Source: Nitrospirota bacterium
Lineage (GTDB): Bacteria > Nitrospirota > Thermodesulfovibrionia > Thermodesulfovibrionales > UBA6898
Assembly: GCA_021814475.1 (NCBI GenBank)
Contig: JAKAIE010000003.1
Location: forward strand, 1 to 64,000
Length of the DNA stretch: 64,000 nt
Reading direction: 5' to 3'
Below, piece by piece: positions 7,594 through 62,803 of this stretch (the stretch's first letter is position 1; every line of letters begins with the position of its first letter). The notes under the pieces are model-generated. The model saw nothing but the letters and a program-made list of their open reading frames with translations, did no database searches and was not told the origin of the DNA. A program made the translations under genes and the position numbers.

Positions 7594-7700
7594 TCCCAAT
7601 TATTCCGAAATCTCTTGCCTATGCATGGACGAATGTGAATACTCATTCAGAATGGGAGAAGACCGTTAAGCTGCATATGGAGAATGAGGTGAATGCTTGA
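7479..7700 (+). other. Open frame following the MOSC remnant, unidentified
   Basis: In a different frame from the MOSC fragment, an open frame of up to 73 codons runs to a TGA at 7698-7700 that overlaps the TTG start of the next gene. Its product (start CDIYEPP, end MENEVNA) has a CHP motif and several Trp/Asn residues, but I do not recognise it. The overlap with the next start suggests it may be the true C-terminal end of the ancestral upstream gene, now separated by a frameshift. Coding status is uncertain. Confidence 0.35.
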
Positions 7701-9436
7701 ATAAAAAGCTCAAACGAGCAATTTCCCTGATTCTGTTATTAACTTCCATTGCTGTTATCTTTTTCTTTCAGGAAGTATATTCTGCAAAGCATGAGCCAGG
7801 TTTAAACAAGTCTGCAGATCAGGCCCCTCTCAAAATCGGCGTTGCCTCGATGATCACACCTGTTGACGCTGTGAAGTACTACCAAGATGTGATCGACTAT
7901 ATAGGTGAGCAGATCGGCAGGCCTGTTCAGATGGTCCACAGGAGAACGTATGATGAGATGGACCAACTCCTCGAAAGGGGCGAAGTCAAGGTCGCGTTCA
8001 TCTGCTCCGCCCCCTATGTCAGGAACCGCGAACGTTTCGGCGTCGAACTTCTTGCAGCGCCGAGCATGCATGGAAAGTCGACCTATCATTCGTACATAAT
8101 TGTCCGGAACGACAGCCCTGTGAAATCCTTCCCGGAACTTAAGGGTAAGACCTTCGCCTTTACCGACCCGAAGTCCAATAGCGGAAAGCTCTATCCGTCC
8201 TACCTGCTAAAAACTATGGGATTAACTCCGGATAGGTTTTTCAAGCGATTCATCTACAGTTACAGCCATAACAAATCGGTCGAGATGGTAGCCAAGAGGA
8301 TAGTTGACGGTGCAGCAGTCGATAGCGTCGTCTATGACCATATGCTGAAAATCGGCTCTCCCTATGCCGTGCAGACAAGGATCATCAAGAGATCGCCGCC
8401 TTATGGCACCCCTCCCGTTGTCGTTACCAGGGACATCAAGCCTGAACTGAAGAAAAAATTGAAGGAAGCCTTTCTTGGAATGCAAATGACCGCCAAGGGA
8501 AGGGCGATACTGAACGAGATGATGATAGACAGGTTTGTAGAGGTCCCTGACCGGAACTATGAAACCATACGTAAAATGGAGAAGGTCGCCGTTGACAGCT
8601 CAAATGCTGCGGTGAAGGCCAAAGAAAAAAATACCGTATATTTCGCCGTCATACCGAGAGACAATCCGAGGATAATGTATGAAAAGTACCAGCCCCTTCT
8701 TGATTATCTTTCGGAAAAGACACCTTACAAGTATGAGCTTGTCTTAAAGAAGAATTATGAGGAGACGGTAACTGCCGTCGGTGAGGGTGAAGTGGATGTC
8801 GCCCTGCTCGGCCCGCTCACCTACCTTGAGGCCCGTTCAAAGTATGGGGCGATCTGCATATTGAAACCCAGGGGTGCCGACAACAATGCAGTTTATCGAA
8901 GCGTCATCATAAAGAAGAAGGATACTCCAGTAGAGACAATTTCTGATCTCAAGGGGAAAAGTATCGCCTTCGCCTCGACGAAATCCACCTCGGGCAATCT
9001 CATGCCCCGGCTCCTTCTTGCAAATGCGGGGATACATCTCGGCGATCTGAGCAGCTACGCAAATTTCGATTACCATGATTCGGTTGTTAAGGCAGTGCTG
9101 AAGGGACAGTATACAGCCGGAGCGGTGAGGGATTCGATTGCGAAAAAGTATATGAAGCTCGGCATAGGAGTTATTGCGGAGTCCAAAACTATCCCGACGG
9201 GACCACTCGTAGCTGGACCAGGTACGCAACCCGCTCTTATCGATAGGATAAAAAAAGCACTTCTAGAGTTAAATCCCCATAATTCTGACGACCGGAAGAT
9301 ATTGAGACATCTCGATGACGAGTTGAAAAACGGTTTTATAGAGGCAATAGACGAAAATTACGGCGATATACGGAAGAGTTTCAATGCGATCTCTCAAACC
9401 TGTGGCAGAGGGTGCCACCCCAAGGTGAGATTATGA
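7697..9436 (+). CDS. Tandem PhnD-like periplasmic binding protein (sensor component)
   Basis: A 579-residue exported protein with an N-terminal hydrophobic signal or anchor (residues 6-25) and two PhnD-like substrate-binding domains in tandem, about residues 45-300 and 310-560. PhnD-type domains bind phosphite, phosphonates and similar oxyanions, and also act as sensors: AioX with AioSR for arsenite, and the sensor domains of TtrS and ThsS for tetrathionate and thiosulfate. Cys103 lies in an FICSAPYV segment, and the C terminus carries Cys569-x3-Cys573-His574. The TTG start at 7697 is supported by GAGGTG 5 bases upstream and overlap with the previous stop. The stop overlaps the kinase start (ATGA). 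No transporter genes follow, so it is probably a sensor. Confidence 0.85.
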   Translation: MNKKLKRAISLILLLTSIAVIFFFQEVYSAKHEPGLNKSADQAPLKIGVASMITPVDAVKYYQDVIDYIGEQIGRPVQMVHRRTYDEMDQLLERGEVKVAFICSAPYVRNRERFGVELLAAPSMHGKSTYHSYIIVRNDSPVKSFPELKGKTFAFTDPKSNSGKLYPSYLLKTMGLTPDRFFKRFIYSYSHNKSVEMVAKRIVDGAAVDSVVYDHMLKIGSPYAVQTRIIKRSPPYGTPPVVVTRDIKPELKKKLKEAFLGMQMTAKGRAILNEMMIDRFVEVPDRNYETIRKMEKVAVDSSNAAVKAKEKNTVYFAVIPRDNPRIMYEKYQPLLDYLSEKTPYKYELVLKKNYEETVTAVGEGEVDVALLGPLTYLEARSKYGAICILKPRGADNNAVYRSVIIKKKDTPVETISDLKGKSIAFASTKSTSGNLMPRLLLANAGIHLGDLSSYANFDYHDSVVKAVLKGQYTAGAVRDSIAKKYMKLGIGVIAESKTIPTGPLVAGPGTQPALIDRIKKALLELNPHNSDDRKILRHLDDELKNGFIEAIDENYGDIRKSFNAISQTCGRGCHPKVRL

Positions 9437-10902
9437 GCAAAGTGCCTATATCATTATCATTCTCTCGGCTCGGTCTTCAGCATAAGTTTGTCATTCTTAC
9501 GACCTGTGCGATTATCTTAGTCATGAGTGTAGTAGGATATCTTGCCGTGGAAAGGGAAAAGGATCTCTTATATGCTGAAAATGAAAAACAGGGGAGATTG
9601 CTCGGGGAGACACTTGCCATCCCGATCATCAATGACCTCATTTATGAAAGACTAGGGCTTGTTGAAGAAGGAGGGCTCCTCGACAACTACATACTGGAAA
9701 TATTCAGCAGAAAGGATTTGTCGCTCCTGTACATTACGATCCTGGATGACGATGGCAAGGTGATATCTCACAATGATATCACGGAATATGGAAAGACATA
9801 TTCTGACTCAATAACGAAAAAGGCCCTTACCTCGGAAAATACCGTTGTTCAGCATTTTCCCGCTGGAGGTCATAACGCCCTTGATTTCGGAGTTCCCCTT
9901 TCCATCGGCAAAAAGCGGTGGGGCACGCTGAAATTCGGCATATCTCTCGAAAAGGCTGAGCATGAAATTCTTTCTACTGTTCAAAAGATTATCGCACTCA
10001 CCACTGCCCTTCTCCTTGTGGGGTTTGCGGTCATTCTCCTCTTGAGCAGAAGGTTCATCAACCCAATAACACAGCTTGCAAACACCATGGCGCAGGCACG
10101 GGGAGACTACCTTGATCTCATGGTTGACGTGAAGGGGCATGATGAACTCGCGGTCCTTGGCGAAAGGTTCAACGGCATGATCGAGAGGATCAGACAGGCA
10201 AATGAAGAACTCAGAAAGACCAACGAAAAACTTGTCCAATCGGAAAAACTGGCCTCTGTTGGTATACTTGCCGCCGGTGTTGCACATGAAATCAACAATC
10301 CGCTCGGCGGCATATTCAACTGTCTCCAGATGCTCAGGCAACATGGAGAGCATCCCAGCCTCAGAGAGAAGTATCTGTCTCTTTTAAACGAGGGGCTGGA
10401 CAAGATAGAAACCACGGTCAGTAAATTGCTCTGGATGTCTCGAAAGGCCGAGCACGCTCCAGTTGATATGAACATCAAGAACTCTGTGAACAGTGTTTAT
10501 GCCTTCCTGGAGTACAAGATGAAGAAGGGCAAGGTCACATTCAAGAACACTGTCCCTGAGGACCTTCGGTTTATGTTTGACGTGCATGATTTTCAGCAGC
10601 TCCTCCTGAACCTGTTTATCAATGCGATTCATGCCATGAAAGAAGGCGGCTTGCTTGAGGTCAGAGGGCACAGGGAAGAGTCAATGCTTACTATTGAGGT
10701 GTCGGATAGCGGCTGCGGTATTGTGTCGGAAGATGTCGGTAAAATATTCGACCCCTTCTTTACAACAAAACCTGTCGGCGAGGGCACCGGACTGGGGCTC
10801 TGGTTGACCTATGAGATAATCAAAAACTACAATGGTGAGATTGCAGTTGAAAGTGAGCCGGGAAAAGGAAGCAGGTTTATTATGCGATTTCCGGCGCCCT
10901 AA
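9433..10902 (+). CDS. Membrane sensor histidine kinase (HAMP)
   Basis: A 489-residue kinase. It has a transmembrane helix at about residues 17-40, a periplasmic sensor region to about 185, a second helix to about 210, HAMP, HisKA with His285 in the VAHEINNPLGG box, and an HATPase domain with DSGCGI (N/G1), FDPFFTTK and GTGLGL boxes. It presumably autophosphorylates when the upstream binding protein reports its ligand, and passes phosphate to the downstream regulator. The ATG at 9433 overlaps the binding-protein stop, and the regulator starts 5 bases after its own stop. Binding protein, kinase and sigma-54 regulator in this order match the AioX-AioS-AioR logic. Confidence 0.92.
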   Translation: MSKVPISLSFSRLGLQHKFVILTTCAIILVMSVVGYLAVEREKDLLYAENEKQGRLLGETLAIPIINDLIYERLGLVEEGGLLDNYILEIFSRKDLSLLYITILDDDGKVISHNDITEYGKTYSDSITKKALTSENTVVQHFPAGGHNALDFGVPLSIGKKRWGTLKFGISLEKAEHEILSTVQKIIALTTALLLVGFAVILLLSRRFINPITQLANTMAQARGDYLDLMVDVKGHDELAVLGERFNGMIERIRQANEELRKTNEKLVQSEKLASVGILAAGVAHEINNPLGGIFNCLQMLRQHGEHPSLREKYLSLLNEGLDKIETTVSKLLWMSRKAEHAPVDMNIKNSVNSVYAFLEYKMKKGKVTFKNTVPEDLRFMFDVHDFQQLLLNLFINAIHAMKEGGLLEVRGHREESMLTIEVSDSGCGIVSEDVGKIFDPFFTTKPVGEGTGLGLWLTYEIIKNYNGEIAVESEPGKGSRFIMRFPAP

Positions 10903-10907
10903 ATATC

Positions 10908-12245
10908 ATGAAAAAGACTGTTTTGCTCATAGAGGATGAAAAGATTATGCGCATTACCCTTGAGGATGCCCTTAGCAGTGCCGGGTATGAGGTGATGGCT
11001 TTTGATGCGGGCGGTCCTGCCTTGCAGACAATTAAAGACAATTCCATTGATGTTGTCGTGACTGATGTCAGGCTTCCGGATATTGATGGGTTCGATATAG
11101 TTAGACAAATAAATCAATATAGCGATACCCCGGTCATTGTCATCACCGCATATGGAACGATCAAAGACGCTGTTGAGGCCATGAAGCTCGGAGCGTTTGA
11201 TTACATTACCAAGCCCTTTGCTCTCGATGAATTTCTTCTGCTTATTGAACGGGCTCTCGAAATAAAAAGGCTGAAGGATGAGAATATACGACTTAGGCGA
11301 GATCTCAGCAAATGCTACTCCGGCCCTAATATCGTAGGCGACAGCGCAGAGATGAAAAAGGTCTTCTCTCTTGTCGAGAGGGTTGCCCCGGTGGATTCAA
11401 CAGTCCTCATACTTGGTGAAAGTGGGACCGGCAAGGAGCTCATCGCAACTACTATTCATTATCAGAGCGGTCGCAAAGACAAACCGTTCATCAAAGTCAA
11501 CTGCGCTGCATTGCCCGAGGGACTTATCGAGACCGAGTTGTTCGGACATGAAAAGGGAGCTTTCACCGGAGCGATTAAGAGGAAGCCGGGCAGATTCGAA
11601 CTTGCCGAGGGGGGGACCATCTTTCTTGATGAAATCGGTGATATCCCTCTTTCAACTCAATCTAAAATATTGCGAGTAATCCAGGAAAGGCAGTTCGAGC
11701 GGATAGGGGGAACGGCAACCCTAAACGTCAACGTCAGAATAATCGCTGCAACAAACAGTAACCTCGAAGAGGAAGTAAAGGCAGGGCGGTTCAGGGAAGA
11801 CTTGTTTTACCGCCTCAACGTTATACCGATTACTCTTCCGCCACTCAGAGACCGAAGAGAAGACATTCCAGCCCTGATAGAATTCTTTATGAACAGATAC
11901 AGGAGAAAACTCTCAAGGAATGTCCGTTTCTCAAAAGATGCGGTTGATCTGCTGATTGCCTATGAGTTCCCCGGCAATGTCAGAGAGCTTGAAAACATCA
12001 TTGAGCGGTACGTTACTCTATGCGCAGGTGAGATGATTGGCAAGGACGAACTGACGGGGATCCTACGGTTGGCAACATCTGAGTCAAAAAGTCTTCTCCT
12101 CTCCGTTATTGCAGCTGACGCCGAGAAGGCTCACATAATAAGGATTCTCCGGACAACGCAGGGAAATAAGACAAGGGCTGCGGAAATCCTTGGCATCAGC
12201 AGGAAGACGTTATGGGATAAGATGAATTCATACAGACTTGAATAG
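10908..12245 (+). CDS. Sigma-54-dependent NtrC-family response regulator
   Basis: A 445-residue three-domain regulator. The receiver has phosphoacceptor Asp53 in VVTDVRLPD and a Lys in the TKPF segment. The AAA+ domain has Walker A GESGTGKE, a canonical GAFTGA loop for sigma-54 contact, Walker B IFLDEIGD and an arginine-finger region. The C terminus has a Fis-type helix-turn-helix (AAEILGISRKTLWDKM). It should bind upstream activating sites and drive sigma-54 promoters. Two palindromes and a -24/-12 promoter lie immediately downstream, so the tatA-to-moeA operon is its likely target. It is the last gene of the sensor operon. Confidence 0.95.
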   Translation: MKKTVLLIEDEKIMRITLEDALSSAGYEVMAFDAGGPALQTIKDNSIDVVVTDVRLPDIDGFDIVRQINQYSDTPVIVITAYGTIKDAVEAMKLGAFDYITKPFALDEFLLLIERALEIKRLKDENIRLRRDLSKCYSGPNIVGDSAEMKKVFSLVERVAPVDSTVLILGESGTGKELIATTIHYQSGRKDKPFIKVNCAALPEGLIETELFGHEKGAFTGAIKRKPGRFELAEGGTIFLDEIGDIPLSTQSKILRVIQERQFERIGGTATLNVNVRIIAATNSNLEEEVKAGRFREDLFYRLNVIPITLPPLRDRREDIPALIEFFMNRYRRKLSRNVRFSKDAVDLLIAYEFPGNVRELENIIERYVTLCAGEMIGKDELTGILRLATSESKSLLLSVIAADAEKAHIIRILRTTQGNKTRAAEILGISRKTLWDKMNSYRLE

Positions 12246-12260
12246 CCTATCCATCATCAA

Positions 12261-12282
12261 GGTGTTACCTTAAGGTAACACC
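12261..12282. promoter_or_regulatory. Distal palindromic activator site
   Basis: A perfect 22-base palindrome with arms GGTGTTACC and GGTAACACC around TTAA. It is followed 92 bases later (centre to centre) by a second palindrome with closely similar arms, and then by a -24/-12 promoter. Position and symmetry fit an upstream activating sequence for the NtrC-type regulator encoded just before it. No T-run follows, so it is unlikely to be only a terminator of the regulator gene. Confidence 0.7.
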
Positions 12283-12352
12283 GATGTTATGCCACCCTCT
12301 TTCCTGAAAAAGATCGATAAATCAGTAAGTTAAGCTGATTGTCTTTTCCCCT

Positions 12353-12374
12353 GGTGTTTCCTTATCGAAACACC
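12353..12374. promoter_or_regulatory. Proximal palindromic activator site
   Basis: An inverted repeat with arms GGTGTTTC and GAAACACC separated by CTTATC. The outer GGTGTT and AACACC halves are shared with the palindrome at 12261-12282. It is centred about 50 bases upstream of the -24 element at 12413. The pair of matching sites argues for cooperative binding of the adjacent sigma-54 activator. Confidence 0.7.
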
Positions 12375-12412
12375 CCAGAACTAACAATTCAGTGAAATCA
12401 GTAGGTTATCGC

Positions 12413-12428
12413 TGGCATTAAAACTGCA
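12413..12428 (+). promoter_or_regulatory. Sigma-54 (-24/-12) promoter of the molybdoenzyme operon
   Basis: TGGCATTAAAACTGCA has the GG and GC dinucleotides at the exact spacing of the consensus TGGCACG-N4-TTGCW; it differs at the first T of TTGC and in the CG after TGGCA. Transcription would start near 12440, about 40 bases before tatA. Two palindromes upstream and an upstream gene for a GAFTGA-type activator support the call. Confidence 0.75.
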
Positions 12429-12481
12429 TCATTGGTTTGGGTGTATTATTGCAGCCATTATAGCGCTATTGAGGAGGGATA

Positions 12482-12667
12482 ATGTTTGGATTAGGATTGC
12501 CGGAACTGGGAATTTTGGCTGTCGTTGGTATGCTGCTATTCGGTCCTTCAAAACTTCCACAGCTCGGCAAAGGGTTGGGGGAGGCTATATCCGGTTTCAG
12601 GAAGGAACTGAAGGAGACCGAGCATAACGCCGGTGAAATAGAGAATGCCGAGAAGAACAAAACCTGA
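12482..12667 (+). CDS. tatA: Twin-arginine translocase subunit TatA
   Basis: A 61-residue TatA/E-family protein. It has a short N terminus, one transmembrane helix (about residues 4-18, LGLPELGILAVVGMLLFGP), the FGP hinge motif, then an amphipathic helix (KLPQLGKGLGEAISGFRKEL) and a short charged tail. TatA oligomers form the pore that exports folded cofactor-containing proteins. It is the first gene of the molybdoenzyme operon, with a GAGGAGG site before the ATG. A dedicated copy here makes sense because the catalytic subunit two genes downstream carries a Tat signal. TatC is not in the window, so it must use the general translocase. Confidence 0.93.
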   Translation: MFGLGLPELGILAVVGMLLFGPSKLPQLGKGLGEAISGFRKELKETEHNAGEIENAEKNKT

Positions 12668-12683
12668 AAAAGGAGGAAGAAAG

Positions 12684-13037
12684 ATGAAGAAGATTCTTGT
12701 TGTCTGTGTTACCTTGTTGTTCGCCTCAACCGCGATTGCGGCAGAACAGAATCTCGTCGAGCTGCACAGGAATGCAAGCAAAATGAGCAACAAGGAATGT
12801 CTGTCATGTCATGCGAAAATCATGAAGGAAGTGTCACTCAACAAAAAGTACAAAATGTTTCACAGGGTGCATCTCGAATCGAAACTCGCAACACCAAAGA
12901 AATGTGCGGACTGTCACCAGTCAGTTGACCTGAGGAACGGCTCCGCGGCTTCGTTGAGAAAACAGGTTGATCCGCAGATTTGCGCCGGATGCCATAGCGG
13001 TGGTGTCAAGGGCGCAAAAGTGCTGTTTGCACAATAA
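12684..13037 (+). CDS. Periplasmic triheme c-type cytochrome
   Basis: A 117-residue exported protein. A Sec signal peptide ends near the AIA-AE site at residues 17-21. Three CxxCH heme-binding motifs are present at Cys39-His43, Cys74-His78 and Cys100-His104; His60, His63 and His28 are candidate axial ligands. It probably carries electrons between the quinone pool or other cytochromes and the molybdoenzyme encoded next, since no NrfD/PsrC-type membrane anchor gene is present in the operon. I chose ATG 12684, preceded by AAGGAGG, over an upstream in-frame ATG at 12645 that lies inside tatA. Confidence 0.9.
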   Translation: MKKILVVCVTLLFASTAIAAEQNLVELHRNASKMSNKECLSCHAKIMKEVSLNKKYKMFHRVHLESKLATPKKCADCHQSVDLRNGSAASLRKQVDPQICAGCHSGGVKGAKVLFAQ

Positions 13038-13050
13038 GAGGAGGAACAGA

Positions 13051-15381
13051 ATGAGCCAAGGAAGAGATATCACAGACGAAGAAAAAAGCCTGTTTGAAAG
13101 TTCTACGGGAAAACAGTTCACTAGACGCTCGTTTCTGAAATGGACGTCGGCCCTCGCCGGGGCAGCTGTTGCAAGCGGTCTCCTCTGGGATGATAAACTC
13201 GGCCTCTTCAGAGAGGCGAGCGCAGAGGAAAAAATGGCCGGAAAAGGAGAATGGATATATACAACATGCCAGATGTGCGGCGGCACATCAGGGATAAAGG
13301 TTCATGTCGTTGATGGGAGGGTGGTAAAGATAGAGCCGAGTGAGTATAACCCCATCGGAGTGGCAAATATCTCTTCCGATTATGCTAAATTCAAGTCGCT
13401 AGGCGGGAAGATGTGTGCAAAAGGCAACTCCGGAACAAGGGCTCTTTATGACCCCGACAGATTGAAAAAGCCGATGAAACGGGTGGGCGAAAGAGGCTCT
13501 GGAAAATGGAAGGCCATTTCGTGGGAAGAGGCCCTTGATGATGTGGCAAAGAACCTGCTGAGTATAAGGGATAAATACGGCCCTGAAGCGATGTTCTGGT
13601 GTACAGAAGATTCATCTTTTACTGACATGCAGGGAGACTTCAATCTCCTGTACGGCTCTCCGAATTACTCGATGCATTCAAATACCTGCGATGTTGCGAG
13701 GAAGGCGTCGTTCAAGCTCGTGATGGGCGATGACAGGCCCCTGCCCGATTTCGCCAATACAAAATACGCCCTTGTATTCGGATGGAATCTCCTTGCAGCT
13801 ACGAAGTGGGCGCACTTGCCGGGTATCTGGAATCTGGGAAGGGCAAAGGGCGCAAAGATGGTCTATGTCGATCCCTTCTATAATCAGACCGCAGCAAAGG
13901 CGGATGAATGGGTGCCAATCAGACCCGGCACGGACGGCGCCTTTGCGCTGGCGCTGGGGCATGAAATAGTGAAGAACAAATGGCATGATGCAGATTTTGT
14001 TAAGGACTATAGCGTAGGATTTGATAAATACGCAGACCTTGTCGGGGATAAAACTCCAGAATGGGCCGAGAAGATCACCTCTGTGCCCGCGGAGACCATA
14101 AAAAGGATAGCGAAAGAGCTCGCATCATCGAAACCCTTTGTGGTCGATACGTGGAGCGGACCGGGACATCATACCAATGCAACTGACGGTGGAAGAGCTA
14201 TAGCGATGCTGCCGGCCCTGCTGGGACAGTATGACAGGCCTGGAACAATGATGAGCAGGCAGGCAAAGGGTGGAAAGAGAAGGGCCTTCAATGTCGACAA
14301 ACCAAAGGCGGCGAGAATTGACGGTCTGGGGACAAAATATCCCTTTGCTCATGCGTCCGGCATATACACCGAGGCGAGAGATGCGATGATCTCCGGGAAG
14401 CCATACCAGCTCAGGGCCGGCGTGTTCATGTTCCAGAACTTTGTAATGTCAGTCCCAAATACGGCAAAGAATATCGAGGCGCTGAAAAAACTTGAATATA
14501 TTGCAGTCCTCGATACCATGATGAGCGAAACGGCAGAGCTTGCCGATATCGTCATACCCGGGAGCCATTACCTTGAAAGATGGGAAATAAACGTCAACTG
14601 GGTCACCTTCCCTGCCACAGCCATAAGGCGGCCTGCGGTAAAATCGGTGATAAACGGCATGACGGAACAGGAGTTCATTCTCGCACTTGCCAAAAAGATG
14701 GGACTTAAGGACAAGGATGGAAAGACCCTGCCGGACACTTACCCAGAATACATGTCCGACCAGCTTAAGAACGGCCCCATAGGCAAAACGCTGGATGAGA
14801 TGATGGCGCTTCCGGGCGGCGTATTTATCGGTGGCGAAACAAATTACGAAAAATATAAGAAGAGCGGCTTCGCAACTCCGTCCAAGAAAATTGAGTTTTA
14901 CTCTGAGCAGATGGAGAAGAAGGGATTGAACCCTCTGCCGGACTTTGTCGAGCCGATTTACAAGCCTACGTTGGAATTCCCGCTTTACCTCATAAACTAT
15001 AAGCAGGCTGAGCACACTCATTCACGGACGTTTAATAACGACTGGCTTATGGAGATGAAAGCGGACAATCCGCTCCTGATGAATTCGGCTACTGCAGCAA
15101 GACTCGGACTCAAAGACGGAGACGCTATCTGGATCGAATCTCCTTATGCGAAGGCGAAGGCTACGGTGCAGGTGACCGAGAGGATCCATCCGGAAGTCGT
15201 TGCCCTTCATCACGGCTATGGACATACGGGCTTCGGAAAGATAGCGAGGGGAGCCCTGAACAAGACCAACCAGTGGTCCCCCGCAGGCACAAACGACGGG
15301 CAATTCCTTGCCGGAGTTTCTGAAAAAGCCTCGGGAATGGCCGTACATAAAGAAATCGGCGTCAAAGTGATAAAGGCATAG
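13051..15381 (+). CDS. Tat-exported molybdopterin oxidoreductase, catalytic subunit (PsrA/PhsA/ArrA-like)
   Basis: A 776-residue DMSO-reductase-family enzyme. A Tat signal (TRRSFLK, Arg25-Arg26) is followed by a hydrophobic stretch, so it acts in the periplasm. Near residue 73 the Fe-S motif reads C-x2-C-x3-S, with Cys73, Cys76 and Ser80, and the fourth ligand Cys122 in MCAKG; the third Cys is thus replaced by Ser. Cys213 in the GSPNYSMHSNTCD segment is the likely Mo ligand, as in polysulfide, thiosulfate and arsenate reductases. Length fits PsrA/PhsA better than ArrA or TtrA. Bis-MGD binding and dinucleotide-binding domains cover the rest. ATG 13051 follows GAGGAG. The substrate cannot be decided from sequence; a sulfur compound or metalloid oxyanion is likely. 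Confidence 0.88.
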   Translation: MSQGRDITDEEKSLFESSTGKQFTRRSFLKWTSALAGAAVASGLLWDDKLGLFREASAEEKMAGKGEWIYTTCQMCGGTSGIKVHVVDGRVVKIEPSEYNPIGVANISSDYAKFKSLGGKMCAKGNSGTRALYDPDRLKKPMKRVGERGSGKWKAISWEEALDDVAKNLLSIRDKYGPEAMFWCTEDSSFTDMQGDFNLLYGSPNYSMHSNTCDVARKASFKLVMGDDRPLPDFANTKYALVFGWNLLAATKWAHLPGIWNLGRAKGAKMVYVDPFYNQTAAKADEWVPIRPGTDGAFALALGHEIVKNKWHDADFVKDYSVGFDKYADLVGDKTPEWAEKITSVPAETIKRIAKELASSKPFVVDTWSGPGHHTNATDGGRAIAMLPALLGQYDRPGTMMSRQAKGGKRRAFNVDKPKAARIDGLGTKYPFAHASGIYTEARDAMISGKPYQLRAGVFMFQNFVMSVPNTAKNIEALKKLEYIAVLDTMMSETAELADIVIPGSHYLERWEINVNWVTFPATAIRRPAVKSVINGMTEQEFILALAKKMGLKDKDGKTLPDTYPEYMSDQLKNGPIGKTLDEMMALPGGVFIGGETNYEKYKKSGFATPSKKIEFYSEQMEKKGLNPLPDFVEPIYKPTLEFPLYLINYKQAEHTHSRTFNNDWLMEMKADNPLLMNSATAARLGLKDGDAIWIESPYAKAKATVQVTERIHPEVVALHHGYGHTGFGKIARGALNKTNQWSPAGTNDGQFLAGVSEKASGMAVHKEIGVKVIKA

Positions 15382-15395
15382 GGAGGTGGAGATAC

Positions 15396-15971
15396 ATGGC
15401 TAAGAATCCAAATCAAATCGGCTGGTACTTTAACGAGAATAACTGTATAGCGTGCAGGGCCTGCGAGGCAGGATGCAAACAGGAGTTCGACCTCCCTGTG
15501 GGGGTCAGGCGCAGAAGGGTCATAATCAGGGAAGAGGGAAAATATCCGAATGTCAATGCCCGGTATATTTCAGCGGCCTGTAACCACTGCGCAGAGCCCG
15601 CATGCATGAAGGCCTGCCCGTCCGGGGCTATTACCAAGGAACCGAAGTTCGGAGTTGTACTGATCGACCAGGACAAGTGCATAGGATGCAAACGGTGCGC
15701 GGCGGCATGTCCGTATGGAGCGCCCACTTTCGACGAGAAGAAAAAGAAGATGGACAAATGTACTCTCTGTATTCACAGGCTCAAGGTAGGGTTGCCGCCT
15801 GCATGTGTGAGAACGTGCATGGGGTATGCACTATGGAGCGGAAAGCTGACGGATATAGAGGAGAATAAAACACCTGATGAACTTTTCAGAAGACCTATTA
15901 AAGACAGGCTGCCTGATTTTGCCGATCCCAAATTGACCATGCCTTCAGTGCGATTTTCAGAGAAAAAGTAA
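15396..15971 (+). CDS. Four-cluster [4Fe-4S] electron-transfer subunit (PsrB/DmsB-like)
   Basis: A 191-residue protein with four Cys quartets: Cys17/20/23/27, Cys62/65/70/74, Cys95/98/101/105 and Cys122/125/137/141. This is the pattern of the B subunits of DMSO-reductase-family enzymes, which pass electrons between the catalytic subunit and a cytochrome or membrane anchor. It has no signal peptide and would be co-exported with the Tat-bearing catalytic subunit. It starts 14 bases after that gene with a GGGAGGTGG site. No membrane-anchor gene follows, so the triheme cytochrome is the likely electron partner. Confidence 0.93.
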   Translation: MAKNPNQIGWYFNENNCIACRACEAGCKQEFDLPVGVRRRRVIIREEGKYPNVNARYISAACNHCAEPACMKACPSGAITKEPKFGVVLIDQDKCIGCKRCAAACPYGAPTFDEKKKKMDKCTLCIHRLKVGLPPACVRTCMGYALWSGKLTDIEENKTPDELFRRPIKDRLPDFADPKLTMPSVRFSEKK

Positions 15972-16014: not shown

Positions 16015-16605
16015 ATGCTGACAGAGGAGATGGTAACACCGTCAGAAGTTCTGGGGATTTTAAGCAGTATGTATCTCTGCCAACCCTCCGGTACGGTTAT
16101 TGAAAATTGGAAAAACGCGCTGGGGAAAGACTCCTCGATTTTCATTGATGACTTGAAGAAGGCGATTAATGGAATAGATTTTACATCAGAAAAACAGATA
16201 GAGGGGATATTATGGGAATTTACTAGGCTATTCATCGGACCCTATAGATTACCGTGCCCGCCATGGGAATCAGTATACACTTCGCCCAAAAGGCTGATGA
16301 TGCAGGAATCGGCCGATCAAGTCCTTTCAATCTATAGAGAAGCTGGTTTGATGCTGAACACTGCCGACGTGCTGCCGGATCATATAGGGGCGGAACTTAA
16401 TTTTCTAGCGGTGTTGCTTCAAAAAGCGCACTCAGAGACAGATCAGAAGGACTATTTCATGGGCATGGCCGGAAGATTGCTGGCCGAGCATCTTTTGAAA
16501 TGGGTTCCTGAGTTTACGCGGGATATGGAAAATGCGGCGGAGACTCTGCTCTACAAGGCATTGGCAAAGACGACCAGAAACATAATAGATTTTATAGGGA
16601 GGTAA
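16015..16605 (+). CDS. TorD/DmsD-family molybdoenzyme chaperone
   Basis: A 196-residue all-helical cytoplasmic protein of the TorD/DmsD/NarJ family. Visible family features are the FTRLFIGPYRLPCPPWESVY segment (residues about 70-90) and an EL(N)FLAVLL helix near residue 130 where the family usually has E-x2-HL. These chaperones bind the Tat leader and hold the apo-enzyme until cofactor is inserted. Its partner is clearly the catalytic subunit two genes upstream. The ATG at 16015 lacks a clear ribosome-binding site; an in-frame ATG at 16030 would remove five residues. Confidence 0.85.
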   Translation: MLTEEMVTPSEVLGILSSMYLCQPSGTVIENWKNALGKDSSIFIDDLKKAINGIDFTSEKQIEGILWEFTRLFIGPYRLPCPPWESVYTSPKRLMMQESADQVLSIYREAGLMLNTADVLPDHIGAELNFLAVLLQKAHSETDQKDYFMGMAGRLLAEHLLKWVPEFTRDMENAAETLLYKALAKTTRNIIDFIGR

Positions 16606-16609
16606 TGGG

Positions 16610-17233
16610 ATGAGGACGGTATCAGAATCTGGCAGCATAAGCGATTTCGATTTGCTTCTTAATGCATCCGCAGGAATTCACGGCCACCTGTGCCCCGGCC
16701 AGGTGCTTGGGGTGAAGATGTCCATGCTTGGACTTCGGGAAATAGGTATTTCTGATCCGAAGGGAAAAGACAGAAAGAGCATAATAGTCTATGTCGAGAT
16801 GGACAGGTGCGCAACCGACGCCGTCCAGTCTGTCACCGGCTGCAGTCTTGGCCACAGGACCATGAAATTCATGGACTATGGCAAGATGGCGGCTACGTTC
16901 ATGAATCTCAAAACCGGCAAGGCGGTACGCGTCATTGCAAGGGAGGATTCACGGCAGAAGGCCAAGGAATACTTTCCCGGGATCGCGAACAAATATGAGG
17001 CCCAGCTTGAGGCATACAAGATAATGCCTGACGACGAGCTGTTTGACGTAATGGATGTTCGTGTCAAGATAAATCCTGAGGATATGCCCGGGAGACCGCT
17101 CAAGAGAGTCCCTTGCGTGCGATGTGGAGAATTCGTGCAGGATATGCGCGAGGTATATAAGGGCGGTGATGTCTTCTGCAAGCCCTGTGCCGCCGCCGGA
17201 TATTACGAGACTGTCGGGGAAACTATTTTTTGA
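16610..17233 (+). CDS. FmdE-family protein
   Basis: A 207-residue protein of the FmdE family (formylmethanofuran dehydrogenase subunit E-like). The N-terminal domain has the signature GIHGHLCPGQVLGVKM near residue 24, a DRCATDAVQSVTGCS segment near residue 64, and a C-terminal zinc ribbon with CVRCGE and CKPC pairs. Family members occur beside molybdenum or tungsten enzymes in non-methanogens, where they may handle metal or cofactor; the biochemical function is not established. It lies 4 bases after the chaperone gene with a GGGAGG site, so it is cotranscribed with the molybdoenzyme. Confidence 0.85.
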   Translation: MRTVSESGSISDFDLLLNASAGIHGHLCPGQVLGVKMSMLGLREIGISDPKGKDRKSIIVYVEMDRCATDAVQSVTGCSLGHRTMKFMDYGKMAATFMNLKTGKAVRVIAREDSRQKAKEYFPGIANKYEAQLEAYKIMPDDELFDVMDVRVKINPEDMPGRPLKRVPCVRCGEFVQDMREVYKGGDVFCKPCAAAGYYETVGETIF

Positions 17234-17274: not shown

Positions 17275-17610
17275 ATGGAGATAAAATCAAAACTCTGGAT
17301 CGAATCGGAAGGGAAGCCCGTCTTCGGCAGAGGCCGGAGGTTTCTCCTTGAGGCTATAGACAGGCATGGCTCTATCAACCAGGCTGCCAAAGAGATCAAT
17401 ATCTCTTACAGAAAGGCCTGGGGATACATAAAGGCGATGGAGGAAAGGCTCGGATTCAAGCTTGTTGAGCGGCAGACAGGTGGCAAAAACGGGGGAGGCG
17501 CAACACTCACCCGGGAGGCGGAAAAGTTTCTCAAAAAATATGAGGCACTGGAGATGGGGATAAGAGAGCTAGTTGACGAGAGATTCAGAAAGATATTCAA
17601 GGATAACTGA
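17275..17610 (+). CDS. ModE-type winged-helix DNA-binding protein
   Basis: A 111-residue protein matching the N-terminal LysR-like winged helix of ModE (GRGRRFLLEAIDRHGSINQAAKEINISYRKAWGYI..., GGKNGGGATLT wing). It lacks the C-terminal molybdate-binding (TOBE/Mop) domains of E. coli ModE (about 260 residues). ModE proteins repress molybdate uptake and adjust Mo enzyme expression. A short form cannot bind molybdate through Mop domains, so its signal is unclear. It is in line with the molybdoenzyme operon, about 40 bases after the FmdE gene, with GGAGAAAG before the ATG. Confidence 0.88.
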   Translation: MEIKSKLWIESEGKPVFGRGRRFLLEAIDRHGSINQAAKEINISYRKAWGYIKAMEERLGFKLVERQTGGKNGGGATLTREAEKFLKKYEALEMGIRELVDERFRKIFKDN

Positions 17611-17627: not shown

Positions 17628-18686
17628 ATGTGTGAGTCGTCCCAGGAAAATCATAACCCAAGAACAAGGAAGCTGGCAGTTACTGAAGCGGTAGGCACTG
17701 TCCTTGCCCATGATATCACGGAGATCAGGCCCGGAGAGTTCAAGGGAAGGGCATTCAGGAAAGGCCACATAATCCGTGAAGAGGATGTCTGCCACCTTCA
17801 ACGCCTGGGCAAGGAAAATCTCTTTGTGCTGGATATCGCGGATGATGAGATGCACGAAGACGACGCGGCGTATGCGCTTGCCAAAGCGCTCATGGGGGAA
17901 GGCGTGACGATCAAGGGAGAGCCTAAGGAAGGGAAGATAAATATCATTGCAGAGACAGATGGACTTCTCAGAATCAACAGGGACGCACTCCTTTCTTTCA
18001 ACATGCTCGGCGACATAATGTGCGCCACGATTCACAATAATACTGTTGTGAAGAAAGGGCAGACTGTTGCGGGCACGCGTGCTATCCCGCTGATCGTAAA
18101 AAAAGCCGTTGTGCAGGCAGCGGTCCGCATTGGCGCAGATGCCGGCAAGATTATCCGGGTTAAGGCAATCAGAAAGCCGAAGGCCGGCGTGGTCATCACC
18201 GGCAACGAAGTGTATCACGGCAGTGTAAAGGACGCATTTGCGCCAATCATTACTGAAAAGATAAAGGCCGTCGATGGAGAGGTTGTCGGAATATATTATG
18301 CACCCGACGATGAATCTTATATCGAGGCAAGGCTGCGGGAACTGATCAATGCCGGGGCTGATCTGCTGATTACAACGGGCGGCATGTCCGTTGATCCGGA
18401 CGACGTGACACGGTTTGCGATAAGAAATCTCGGGGTGGAGCATATCACCTACGGTTCGGCAGTTCTTCCCGGCGCAATGTTTCTGGTTGCCTATTGCGGG
18501 GACATACCGATCCTGAGTATACCGGCCTGCGGTATGTATGCAAAGACTACCATCTTTGATCTGATGCTGCCGAGGGTCCTTGCCGGCGAGAAAGTGGGCA
18601 GAAGGGAACATGCCGAACTCGGGCATGGTGGTCTCTGTTTGAAATGCGCGGAGTGCAATTATCCAGTATGTCCGTTTGGTAAGTAG
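17628..18686 (+). CDS. MoeA-like molybdopterin-binding protein with C-terminal Cys cluster
   Basis: A 352-residue protein. An N-terminal region (TEAVGTVLAHDITEI..., FKGRAFRKGHII) resembles MoeA domain I, and a MoCF_biosynth domain lies at about residues 190-330 with ITTGGMSVDPDDVT and ALPG-like VLPGAMF segments. Classical MoeA is about 410 residues and inserts molybdenum into adenylated molybdopterin. This shorter type lacks the C-terminal domain IV and ends instead in CLKCAECNYPVCPFGK, four closely spaced cysteines that could bind a metal or cluster. It is the last gene of the molybdoenzyme operon, 17 bases after the ModE-like gene. It may be a dedicated Mo-insertion factor or a sensor-like paralogue. 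Confidence 0.82.
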   Translation: MCESSQENHNPRTRKLAVTEAVGTVLAHDITEIRPGEFKGRAFRKGHIIREEDVCHLQRLGKENLFVLDIADDEMHEDDAAYALAKALMGEGVTIKGEPKEGKINIIAETDGLLRINRDALLSFNMLGDIMCATIHNNTVVKKGQTVAGTRAIPLIVKKAVVQAAVRIGADAGKIIRVKAIRKPKAGVVITGNEVYHGSVKDAFAPIITEKIKAVDGEVVGIYYAPDDESYIEARLRELINAGADLLITTGGMSVDPDDVTRFAIRNLGVEHITYGSAVLPGAMFLVAYCGDIPILSIPACGMYAKTTIFDLMLPRVLAGEKVGRREHAELGHGGLCLKCAECNYPVCPFGK

Positions 18687-61864: not shown

Positions 61865-62803
61865 ATGGACCGCCACATGACAAAGGTGTTGTTCCCGGCT
61901 TTAATCGTGTTTGTTGTTATCGGGCTTGCTGCCTGCAGAGGGAAGGAAAGTCCCAAAAGAATAAGTCTGGAGAAGAAGGAATCAGCAGCGGTTACGGCGG
62001 GAAGGGACAAGGAGAAACATCTGAGGATCGCTGTCGGCGGCATGATCACCCCAAAGGAAGGCCTCGCCTATTACAGGCAGTTTCTGGACTACATTGAAGA
62101 GAAACTCGGCATGAAGGTGGATTTTGTGGCCAGGGAAGACTATGCCGAGATCAATGACATGATCAGGGAGGGTAATCTTGAAGCTGCCTTTGTCTGCAGC
62201 GGGCCGTACGTCGACGGCCACAGAGAATTCGGCATGGAACTGCTGGTTGCGCCTCAGGTGTATGGGAAGACTGTGTATTACTCTTATATTATCGTTGCCA
62301 GGGCCAGTTCCATCAACCGTTTTGAGGATTTGAGAGGAAAAAGTTTTGCCTTTGCCGATCCGTTGTCGAACACAGGGAAGCTGGTACCGACGTACATGCT
62401 CGCGAAGATGAAGGAAAAACCGGATACCTTTTTCGGAAAATATGTATTCACGAACGCGCATGACAAGTCGATAAAGGCTGTTGCCCAGAATATCGTCGAC
62501 GGGGCGGCGGTGGACAGCCTGATATGGGAATATGAAAACAGTACCAATTCCGAGTTTACGTCAAAGACCAGGATCATAGAGAAGTCCGCTCCCTATGCGA
62601 TTCCCCCGGTGGTTGTTTCCCGGAACCTTGACCCGAGGCTTAAGGAACGGTTGCGTCAGATATTCCTGAACGCCGGTGCCGACCCCAGGGGCAGGGAACT
62701 GCTCGGGAAGATGAAGATAGACAAGTTTGTTCTGATCAATGACAGAGCGTACAATTCGGTAAGGGAAATGAAGTCCTGGCTTGCCAAACAGAGACAGGGA
62801 TGA
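61865..62803 (+). CDS. PhnD-like substrate-binding lipoprotein
   Basis: A 312-residue lipoprotein with lipobox LAAC (Cys24) and one PhnD-like domain. It closely resembles the first domain of the island binding protein at 7697: both share (I/V)xGMITP-like, AF(V/I)CS(G/A)PYV, GK.FAF.DP.SN.GKL and (V/I)VDGAAVDS segments, and the single Cys111 in FVCSGPYV is conserved. It has no neighbouring permease or ATPase but is followed by a sensor kinase, so it probably works as its ligand sensor. AAGGGG precedes the ATG; another ATG at 61877 is in frame. Confidence 0.85.
   Translation: MDRHMTKVLFPALIVFVVIGLAACRGKESPKRISLEKKESAAVTAGRDKEKHLRIAVGGMITPKEGLAYYRQFLDYIEEKLGMKVDFVAREDYAEINDMIREGNLEAAFVCSGPYVDGHREFGMELLVAPQVYGKTVYYSYIIVARASSINRFEDLRGKSFAFADPLSNTGKLVPTYMLAKMKEKPDTFFGKYVFTNAHDKSIKAVAQNIVDGAAVDSLIWEYENSTNSEFTSKTRIIEKSAPYAIPPVVVSRNLDPRLKERLRQIFLNAGADPRGRELLGKMKIDKFVLINDRAYNSVREMKSWLAKQRQG

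Follow-up and report, generated by a model that had tools for sequence, protein, structure and literature searches.

A predicted arsenic-type three-component switch and sigma-54 promoter upstream of exchangeable molybdoenzymes in Thermodesulfovibrionales

Genes and promoter elements of the locus

Three genes read in the same direction, here called X, S and R, lie upstream of a promoter region in the window, the whole 64,000-nucleotide stretch of Nitrospirota DNA that was analyzed. X (7697..9436, + strand) encodes a predicted periplasmic sensor with two PhnD-type domains, seen as two stretches matching Pfam Phosphonate-bd; its listed start is the TTG at 7697, and the actual start may be further downstream. 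S (9412..10902, + strand) encodes a membrane sensor histidine kinase with sCache, HAMP, HisKA and HATPase domains, and our reading of the sequence places its probable start at the ATG at 9433, which overlaps the X stop codon as ATGA. R (10908..12245, + strand) encodes a sigma-54-dependent response regulator with a receiver, an AAA+ domain carrying GAFTGA and a Fis HTH. The initial annotation had called this protein a GAFTGA-type activator with a Fis HTH, and the Response_reg, Sigma54_activat and HTH_8 domains found in it, in an NtrC/AtoC-type arrangement, agree with that description; rpoN, whose presence was also checked, was found in the genome. Because genes for a periplasmic sensor and a kinase stand upstream of the regulator, we read the three as a system of the AioXSR/ArxXSR/ArrXSR type.

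The promoter region is bounded upstream by R and downstream by an operon for TatA, a multiheme cytochrome and a PhsA/PsrA-like enzyme. Two unstranded putative activator sites, recognized from the sequence and from relatives, lie within it. UAS1 (12261..12282) is the 22-bp perfect palindrome GGTGTTACCTTAAGGTAACACC, beginning 16 bp past the regulator stop codon; its conserved core, GTTACCTTAAGGTAAC, occupies 12264-12279 and is centered at about -167 relative to the predicted transcription start. UAS2 (12353..12374) is the palindrome GGTGTTTCCTTATCGAAACACC, with its core at 12356-12371 and its center at about -75. These are followed by a candidate sigma-54 -24/-12 promoter, TGGCATTAAAACTGCA (12413..12428, + strand), from which a start near 12439 is predicted. 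Neither a sigma-70-like promoter nor a terminator-like site was found in 12200-12720.

Several properties previously ascribed to these elements were confirmed. The twin palindromes, with GGTGTT and AACACC halves and starts 92 bp apart, both match GGTGTTWC-N6-GWAACACC exactly, and a genome scan showed them to be the only exact matches in the whole 3.1 Mb assembly. The -24/-12 spacing is likewise present, as TGGCATTAAAACTGCA has GG-N10-GC and is the sole exact consensus match in the window. At one mismatch or fewer, the sigma-54 box has 10 matches in the window versus 12.3 expected, which is weak by itself; at that tolerance, consensus alone does not raise the box above chance in the window. The assembly has 7 matches to the shorter core GTTWC-N6-GWAAC versus 4 for a reversed control, and a wider regulon in the source genome was not indicated by the remaining core matches whose context was checked, all of which are inside ORFs. 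The best-supported interpretation, drawn from sequence comparison, is a sigma-54 promoter with two predicted sites for the product of the adjacent upstream gene.

IHF recognizes the consensus WATCAANNNNTTR, and two IHF-like boxes on the + strand each differ from it by one mismatch. Box 1, AATCAGTAAGTTA (12320..12332), lies between UAS1 and UAS2, and box 2, AATCAGTAGGTTA (12396..12408), lies between UAS2 and the -24 element. The genome encodes six proteins of the HU/IHF family, one of which exceeds the IHF-alpha cut-off while another falls slightly short of that for IHF-beta.

All genes of the downstream operon are on the + strand. The first, preceded by GAGGAGG, encodes a TatA/E-family protein (12482..12667; TatA_B_E, E 2.7e-17). 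It is followed by genes for a multiheme (c7-type) c cytochrome (12684..13037), a Tat-exported, PhsA/PsrA-like molybdopterin oxidoreductase of 776 aa (13051..15381), a DmsB/PsrB-type iron-sulfur subunit (15396..15971) and a TorD/DmsD-type chaperone (16015..16605). An FmdE-family protein with a zinc ribbon (16610..17233), which is retained beside different enzyme types, precedes two further members of the cassette, a ModE-like winged-helix protein (17275..17610; HTH_1) and a MoeA/MoaB-fold molybdopterin protein (17628..18686). The best NCBIfam family for the molybdoenzyme is PhsA at 451.7 bits, yet this is under the cut-off of 694 and does not make it a member by this test; its best PDB match is 2vpw_A, titled thiosulfate reductase (E 7.5e-87). 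As an ArrA it scores 225 bits versus an NCBIfam cut-off of 1600, and no ArrA elsewhere in the source genome is above the cut-off. Since the window enzyme is not an ArrA, the argument for an arsenic substrate comes from the sensor and from linkage only. Two molybdoenzyme frames of about 900 codons (G000:C14:1469-2206 and G000:C25:1578-2318), with one in-frame TGA each, are possibly selenocysteine formate dehydrogenases.

Conservation of the promoter in relatives

A search of 150 related genomes with X as the query yielded about 40 close orthologs, and 40 surrounding regions were mapped for genes, sites and promoters. Among the 41 oriented sensor loci, including the window, there are 59 sites of the form GTTNC-N6-GNAAC, versus 6.1 expected from a dinucleotide model, and 56 of the 59 are outside ORFs. 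At those loci where a sigma-54 box is found, its -24 element usually lies 143-151 bp downstream of site 1 and 56-58 bp downstream of site 2. Further promoters from named records give distances of 57-59 bp for site 2 and 144-150 bp for site 1; some of these records are the same contigs as earlier loci and so were not counted as new. This layout is repeated across the order Thermodesulfovibrionales, as judged by record titles, and in some MAGs titled Deltaproteobacteria, Syntrophaceae and Syntrophus. When 18 promoters are aligned, they share 74% identity with the window over the three elements versus 35% elsewhere. It is this comparison across loci that gives the sites their significance; the sigma-54 box alone is not convincing. 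The source bacterium has relatives that come from sediments of mines and groundwater.

The family core is GTTWC-N6-GTAAC, usually with a T before and an A after it, and the center between the half-sites is variable and T-rich. Hence the candidate motif proposed in the initial annotation was over-specified: its inner portion, GTTWC-N6-GWAAC, is conserved, whereas the outer GG...CC is local to the window. The same annotation had regarded the circuit as complete. A promoter with two sites for the adjacent regulator holds up, in that the pair, the distance and the linked regulator recur, but X, S, the IHF-like boxes and the kind of operon involved had been missed.

The pattern is not uniform. Some XSR loci, including L056 and L062, have no exact site within the stretch examined, and site distances deviate in L054, L060 and L070. 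Four other loci (L045, L050, L051 and L099) have two separate site clusters each, one after the regulator and one before an ArrA-like gene, an arrangement that suggests one regulator drives two promoters. Two related genomes, G060 and G136, are enriched throughout in the core GTTWC-N6-GTAAC, with 23 and 26 forward matches, respectively, versus 6 and 7 in the control. Because of this enrichment, another regulator may read similar 16-mers there. The matches in these two genomes are partly arranged in runs at 24-bp spacing, for example at G060:C33:401-464.

The IHF-like boxes are also conserved. The 18 promoters contain 28 such boxes at one mismatch or fewer, versus 6.1 +/- 2.5 expected, most of them at -90 to -94 or at -17/-18 from the first base of the -24 box. 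Box 2 forms a conserved column block in the alignment, and the position of box 1 is fixed in many relatives. These conserved blocks therefore yield the order UAS1, IHF1, UAS2, IHF2, -24/-12. As predicted from sequence, the promoter has the parts of an IHF-assisted sigma-54 promoter, with a -24/-12 element, activator sites and IHF consensus matches between them.

The sensor, related systems and the enzyme slot

The first domain of X has ArrX (6x6b) as its best PDB match (E 2.9e-49), with AioX next, and contains all of the AioX pocket residues (Tyr/Cys/Tyr/Ser/Asn/Ser/His/Asp) as named in PMC5908839. In a 40-row ortholog alignment, the equivalents of Y88, C106, Y131, S161, N162 and H192 are invariant where aligned, the S163 equivalent is S or T and the D210 equivalent is D or E; neither of these last two variations splits cleanly by enzyme class, and both were rejected as markers. 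The Cys that contacts arsenite in AioX is kept in 39 of the 39 orthologs in which the residue is aligned. The second domain mostly has Gly at this position, as in PhnD, and resembles PhnD-type/selenate-type binding proteins without the Cys. With its Cys106-containing pocket, X is nearer to AioX/ArrX than to transport PhnD. ArrX binds arsenate and AioX binds arsenite despite their common pocket (PMC5908839), so the pocket residues are not enough to fix the ligand. For X, the sequence points to arsenate or a similar metalloid oxyanion as the most likely ligand. A second ArrX/AioX-like PhnD protein, with a single domain 44% identical to X domain 1 and a Cys at the Cys106 position, is encoded near the window end (61865-62803; L179:866-4487) and is followed by a hybrid histidine kinase from 62781 onward; no UAS pair or sigma-54 regulator was found near this pair.

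The AioXSR/aioBA systems of Rhizobium NT-26, A. tumefaciens and pSinA have the same order of X-S-R followed by a molybdoenzyme operon, and they also have a cytochrome c, a MoeA-type gene, a sigma-54 promoter and paired GTTN10AAC-type sites. The AioR consensus GTTN10AAC and the mcp footprint GTTCGGATTTCCGAAC (PMC5335332) both fit the window core, and R is 37-38% identical to AioR and 39-40% identical to the regulators associated with two further molybdoenzyme clusters. In NT-26 and pSinA, two GTTC-N8-GAAC sites come after aioXSR, and the one closer to the sigma-54 box is 67-68 bp upstream of it; the two sites are 33 bp apart, in contrast to 92 bp in the window. Moreover, AioX has one PhnD domain whereas the window X has two, and the Aio output is the AioBA arsenite oxidase with its Rieske subunit rather than a PhsA/PsrA-like enzyme.

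Other systems overlap with the window in different ways. ArrX of ArrXSR is the closest solved structure to X domain 1, and orthologs of the window module precede ArrA-like genes in many relatives. However, the ArrR of Chrysiogenes is of the CitB/FixJ type and lacks an AAA+ domain, and a sigma-54 promoter was not detected there (PMC5908839), whereas the window has an AtoC-type R, a clear sigma-54 promoter and an enzyme other than ArrA. Azoarcus KH32C has, beside ars genes, a putatively arx-like molybdoenzyme cluster linked to XSR; this cluster has an AtoC-type R that is 39% identical to the window R and a GTTAC-N6-GTAAC sequence upstream of a sigma-54-like box, but differs in its divergent gene order, its NrfD membrane subunit and its single-domain X. 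The PhsA/PsrA family shares its catalytic and 4Fe-4S subunit types with the window; in place of an NrfD/PsrC membrane subunit the window has a multiheme cytochrome, and its control would be by an arsenic-type sensor.

With an AtoC-type R and a sigma-54 promoter carrying GTTN10AAC sites, the window circuit is placed, by the features tested, with the AioR/ArxR branch of XSR systems and would work like it. Known XSR members have a single-domain X, a shape that no stated rule makes defining, and we read the double-PhnD X as a variant because its first domain keeps the family pocket. What sets it apart from the branch is this second PhnD domain in X, a spacing of 86-94 bp between the sites, the conservation of IHF-like boxes and the output enzyme. 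Three features appear to be new: the sensor with its two PhnD domains, the promoter of UAS-IHF-UAS-IHF-sigma54 layout and the slot in which ArrA-, TtrA- or PhsA/PsrA-like enzymes are exchangeable; a literature search of incomplete coverage found no description of the double-domain sensor or of the module in Nitrospirota.

The enzymes encoded beside orthologous XSR genes are ArrA-like, TtrA-like, PhsA/PsrA-like or of one further PhsA/DmsA-like type. Those that are ArrA-like match an ArrA structure best (E 8.6e-266) and score 1016-1104 bits, below the strict cut-off of 1600; the TtrA-like enzymes score 489-585 bits versus a cut-off of 1750. Genes for the FmdE, ModE-like and MoeA-like proteins are often kept whatever enzyme type is present. 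On a tree of concatenated X+S+R, made by a quick method and with several open forks, the PhsA/PsrA-like group requires 2 changes and the ArrA-like group 5, and the three-member clade containing the window adjoins an ArrA-like clade. Badilla et al. noted that regulator and enzyme trees disagree, so the principle of exchange was already known; what is added here is its scale and the enzyme types involved. At L058:8527-12910, two GGDEF/EAL-type proteins are encoded between the regulator and the ArrA-like operon.

Related PhsA/PsrA-like operons, located by a search with the window enzyme, serve as natural controls. Twin sites are present at L144 and L147, and one site is present at L142, a second operon in G052 with its XSR on the same contig about 14 kb away. 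The operons L143 (in G021) and L145 (in G039) have no sites and no good sigma-54 box, and the X search found no full-length double-domain X in either genome, although the ModE-like gene is kept in both. The sites thus appear to track the regulator and not the enzyme, as judged from two genomes, of which G021 is 83% complete. The gene just before the L143 operon is of the SufD type and shares 89% identity with the SufD-type gene upstream of the window X. G021, which lacks X-S-R at this operon, belongs to one genus group with G017, in which the switch is present, indicating a natural loss or gain.

A proposed switch and its significance

We consider it probable that the locus, taken as a whole, is an X-S-R switch of the AioXSR/ArxXSR/ArrXSR type that drives the operon through UAS1/UAS2, IHF and sigma-54. 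The ArrX-like first domain of X would bind a periplasmic oxyanion, for which arsenate or another, similar metalloid oxyanion is the most likely candidate, and ligand-bound X would activate S, which would phosphorylate R. Phosphorylated R would then bind UAS1 and UAS2 at the core GTTWC-N6-GWAAC. IHF, or an HU relative, would bend the DNA at two boxes, one past each site, letting R contact sigma-54 RNA polymerase at 12413-12428. This would switch on TatA, the multiheme cytochrome, the PhsA/PsrA-like molybdoenzyme, its FeS subunit, the chaperone and the Mo-cofactor helpers. The switch would be a module, as comparison shows the same X-S-R genes and promoter preceding ArrA-, TtrA- or PhsA/PsrA-like enzymes in relatives. 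Comparison also shows the sites and their geometry, the IHF-like boxes, the homology of X, S and R and the joint occurrence of XSR and the sites, whereas DNA binding by R, the phosphorelay, bending by IHF and the identities of ligand and substrate are predictions.

Alternatively, the same circuit might respond to an oxyanion of sulfur, selenium or phosphorus (thiosulfate, tetrathionate, selenate or phosphite) and its enzyme be an ordinary sulfur/selenium oxyanion reductase. The best scores of the window enzyme, as PhsA and against the 2vpw thiosulfate reductase, are consistent with this, as are the TtrA-like enzymes in other slots and the resemblance of X domain 2 to Cys-free PhnD-type/selenate-type proteins. 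Nevertheless, we regard it as rather unlikely, given the arsenite-contact Cys in domain 1 of every aligned ortholog, the position of ArrX and AioX as the best structural relatives of that domain and the many relatives in which the same module would drive ArrA-like enzymes.

It is far less probable that the sites are read by another regulator, such as the ModE-like protein (17275-17610) or a different NtrC-type protein, with the adjacent R acting elsewhere. The abundance of a similar 16-mer in G060 and G136 does indicate that the protein reading a site cannot be told from the type of site alone. However, the site pair adjoins or is near R in most loci, GTTN10AAC is also the core read by the AioR family, and the sites are missing from the two sensor-less genomes that have a related enzyme operon and a ModE-like gene. 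That the palindromes are RNA hairpins or a terminator is scarcely credible and was rejected, for although UAS1 closely follows the regulator gene and is perfectly self-complementary, there is no terminator-like site in the region, what is conserved is a half-site pair with a variable T-rich center at a fixed distance from -24/-12, and the pair also stands before operons that do not immediately follow the regulator (the second copy in L045, L058, L144 and L147).

We put forward tentatively, at somewhat under even chances, that the conserved cassette, composed of the double-PhnD X, S, R, the UAS-IHF-UAS-IHF-sigma54 promoter and FmdE/ModE/MoeA, senses metalloid oxyanions and is a socket into which different molybdoenzymes have been exchanged. 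The window enzyme plugged into this socket would then be an undescribed respiratory enzyme that reduces arsenate, antimonate or a related metalloid oxyanion. The locus and its relatives would extend arsenic-type three-component regulation to Thermodesulfovibrionales (Nitrospirota) and to some MAGs titled Deltaproteobacteria or Syntrophus. The promoter signature is precise and usable for genome scans. As the regulator remains constant while the enzyme changes, the signature flags substrate-unassigned molybdoenzymes as candidate metalloid-oxyanion reductases, among them the 776-aa PhsA/PsrA-like enzyme of the window, for which the switch suggests what the enzyme may respire. The substrate of a molybdoenzyme is hard to predict by sequence, and a prediction based upon its regulation is directly testable.
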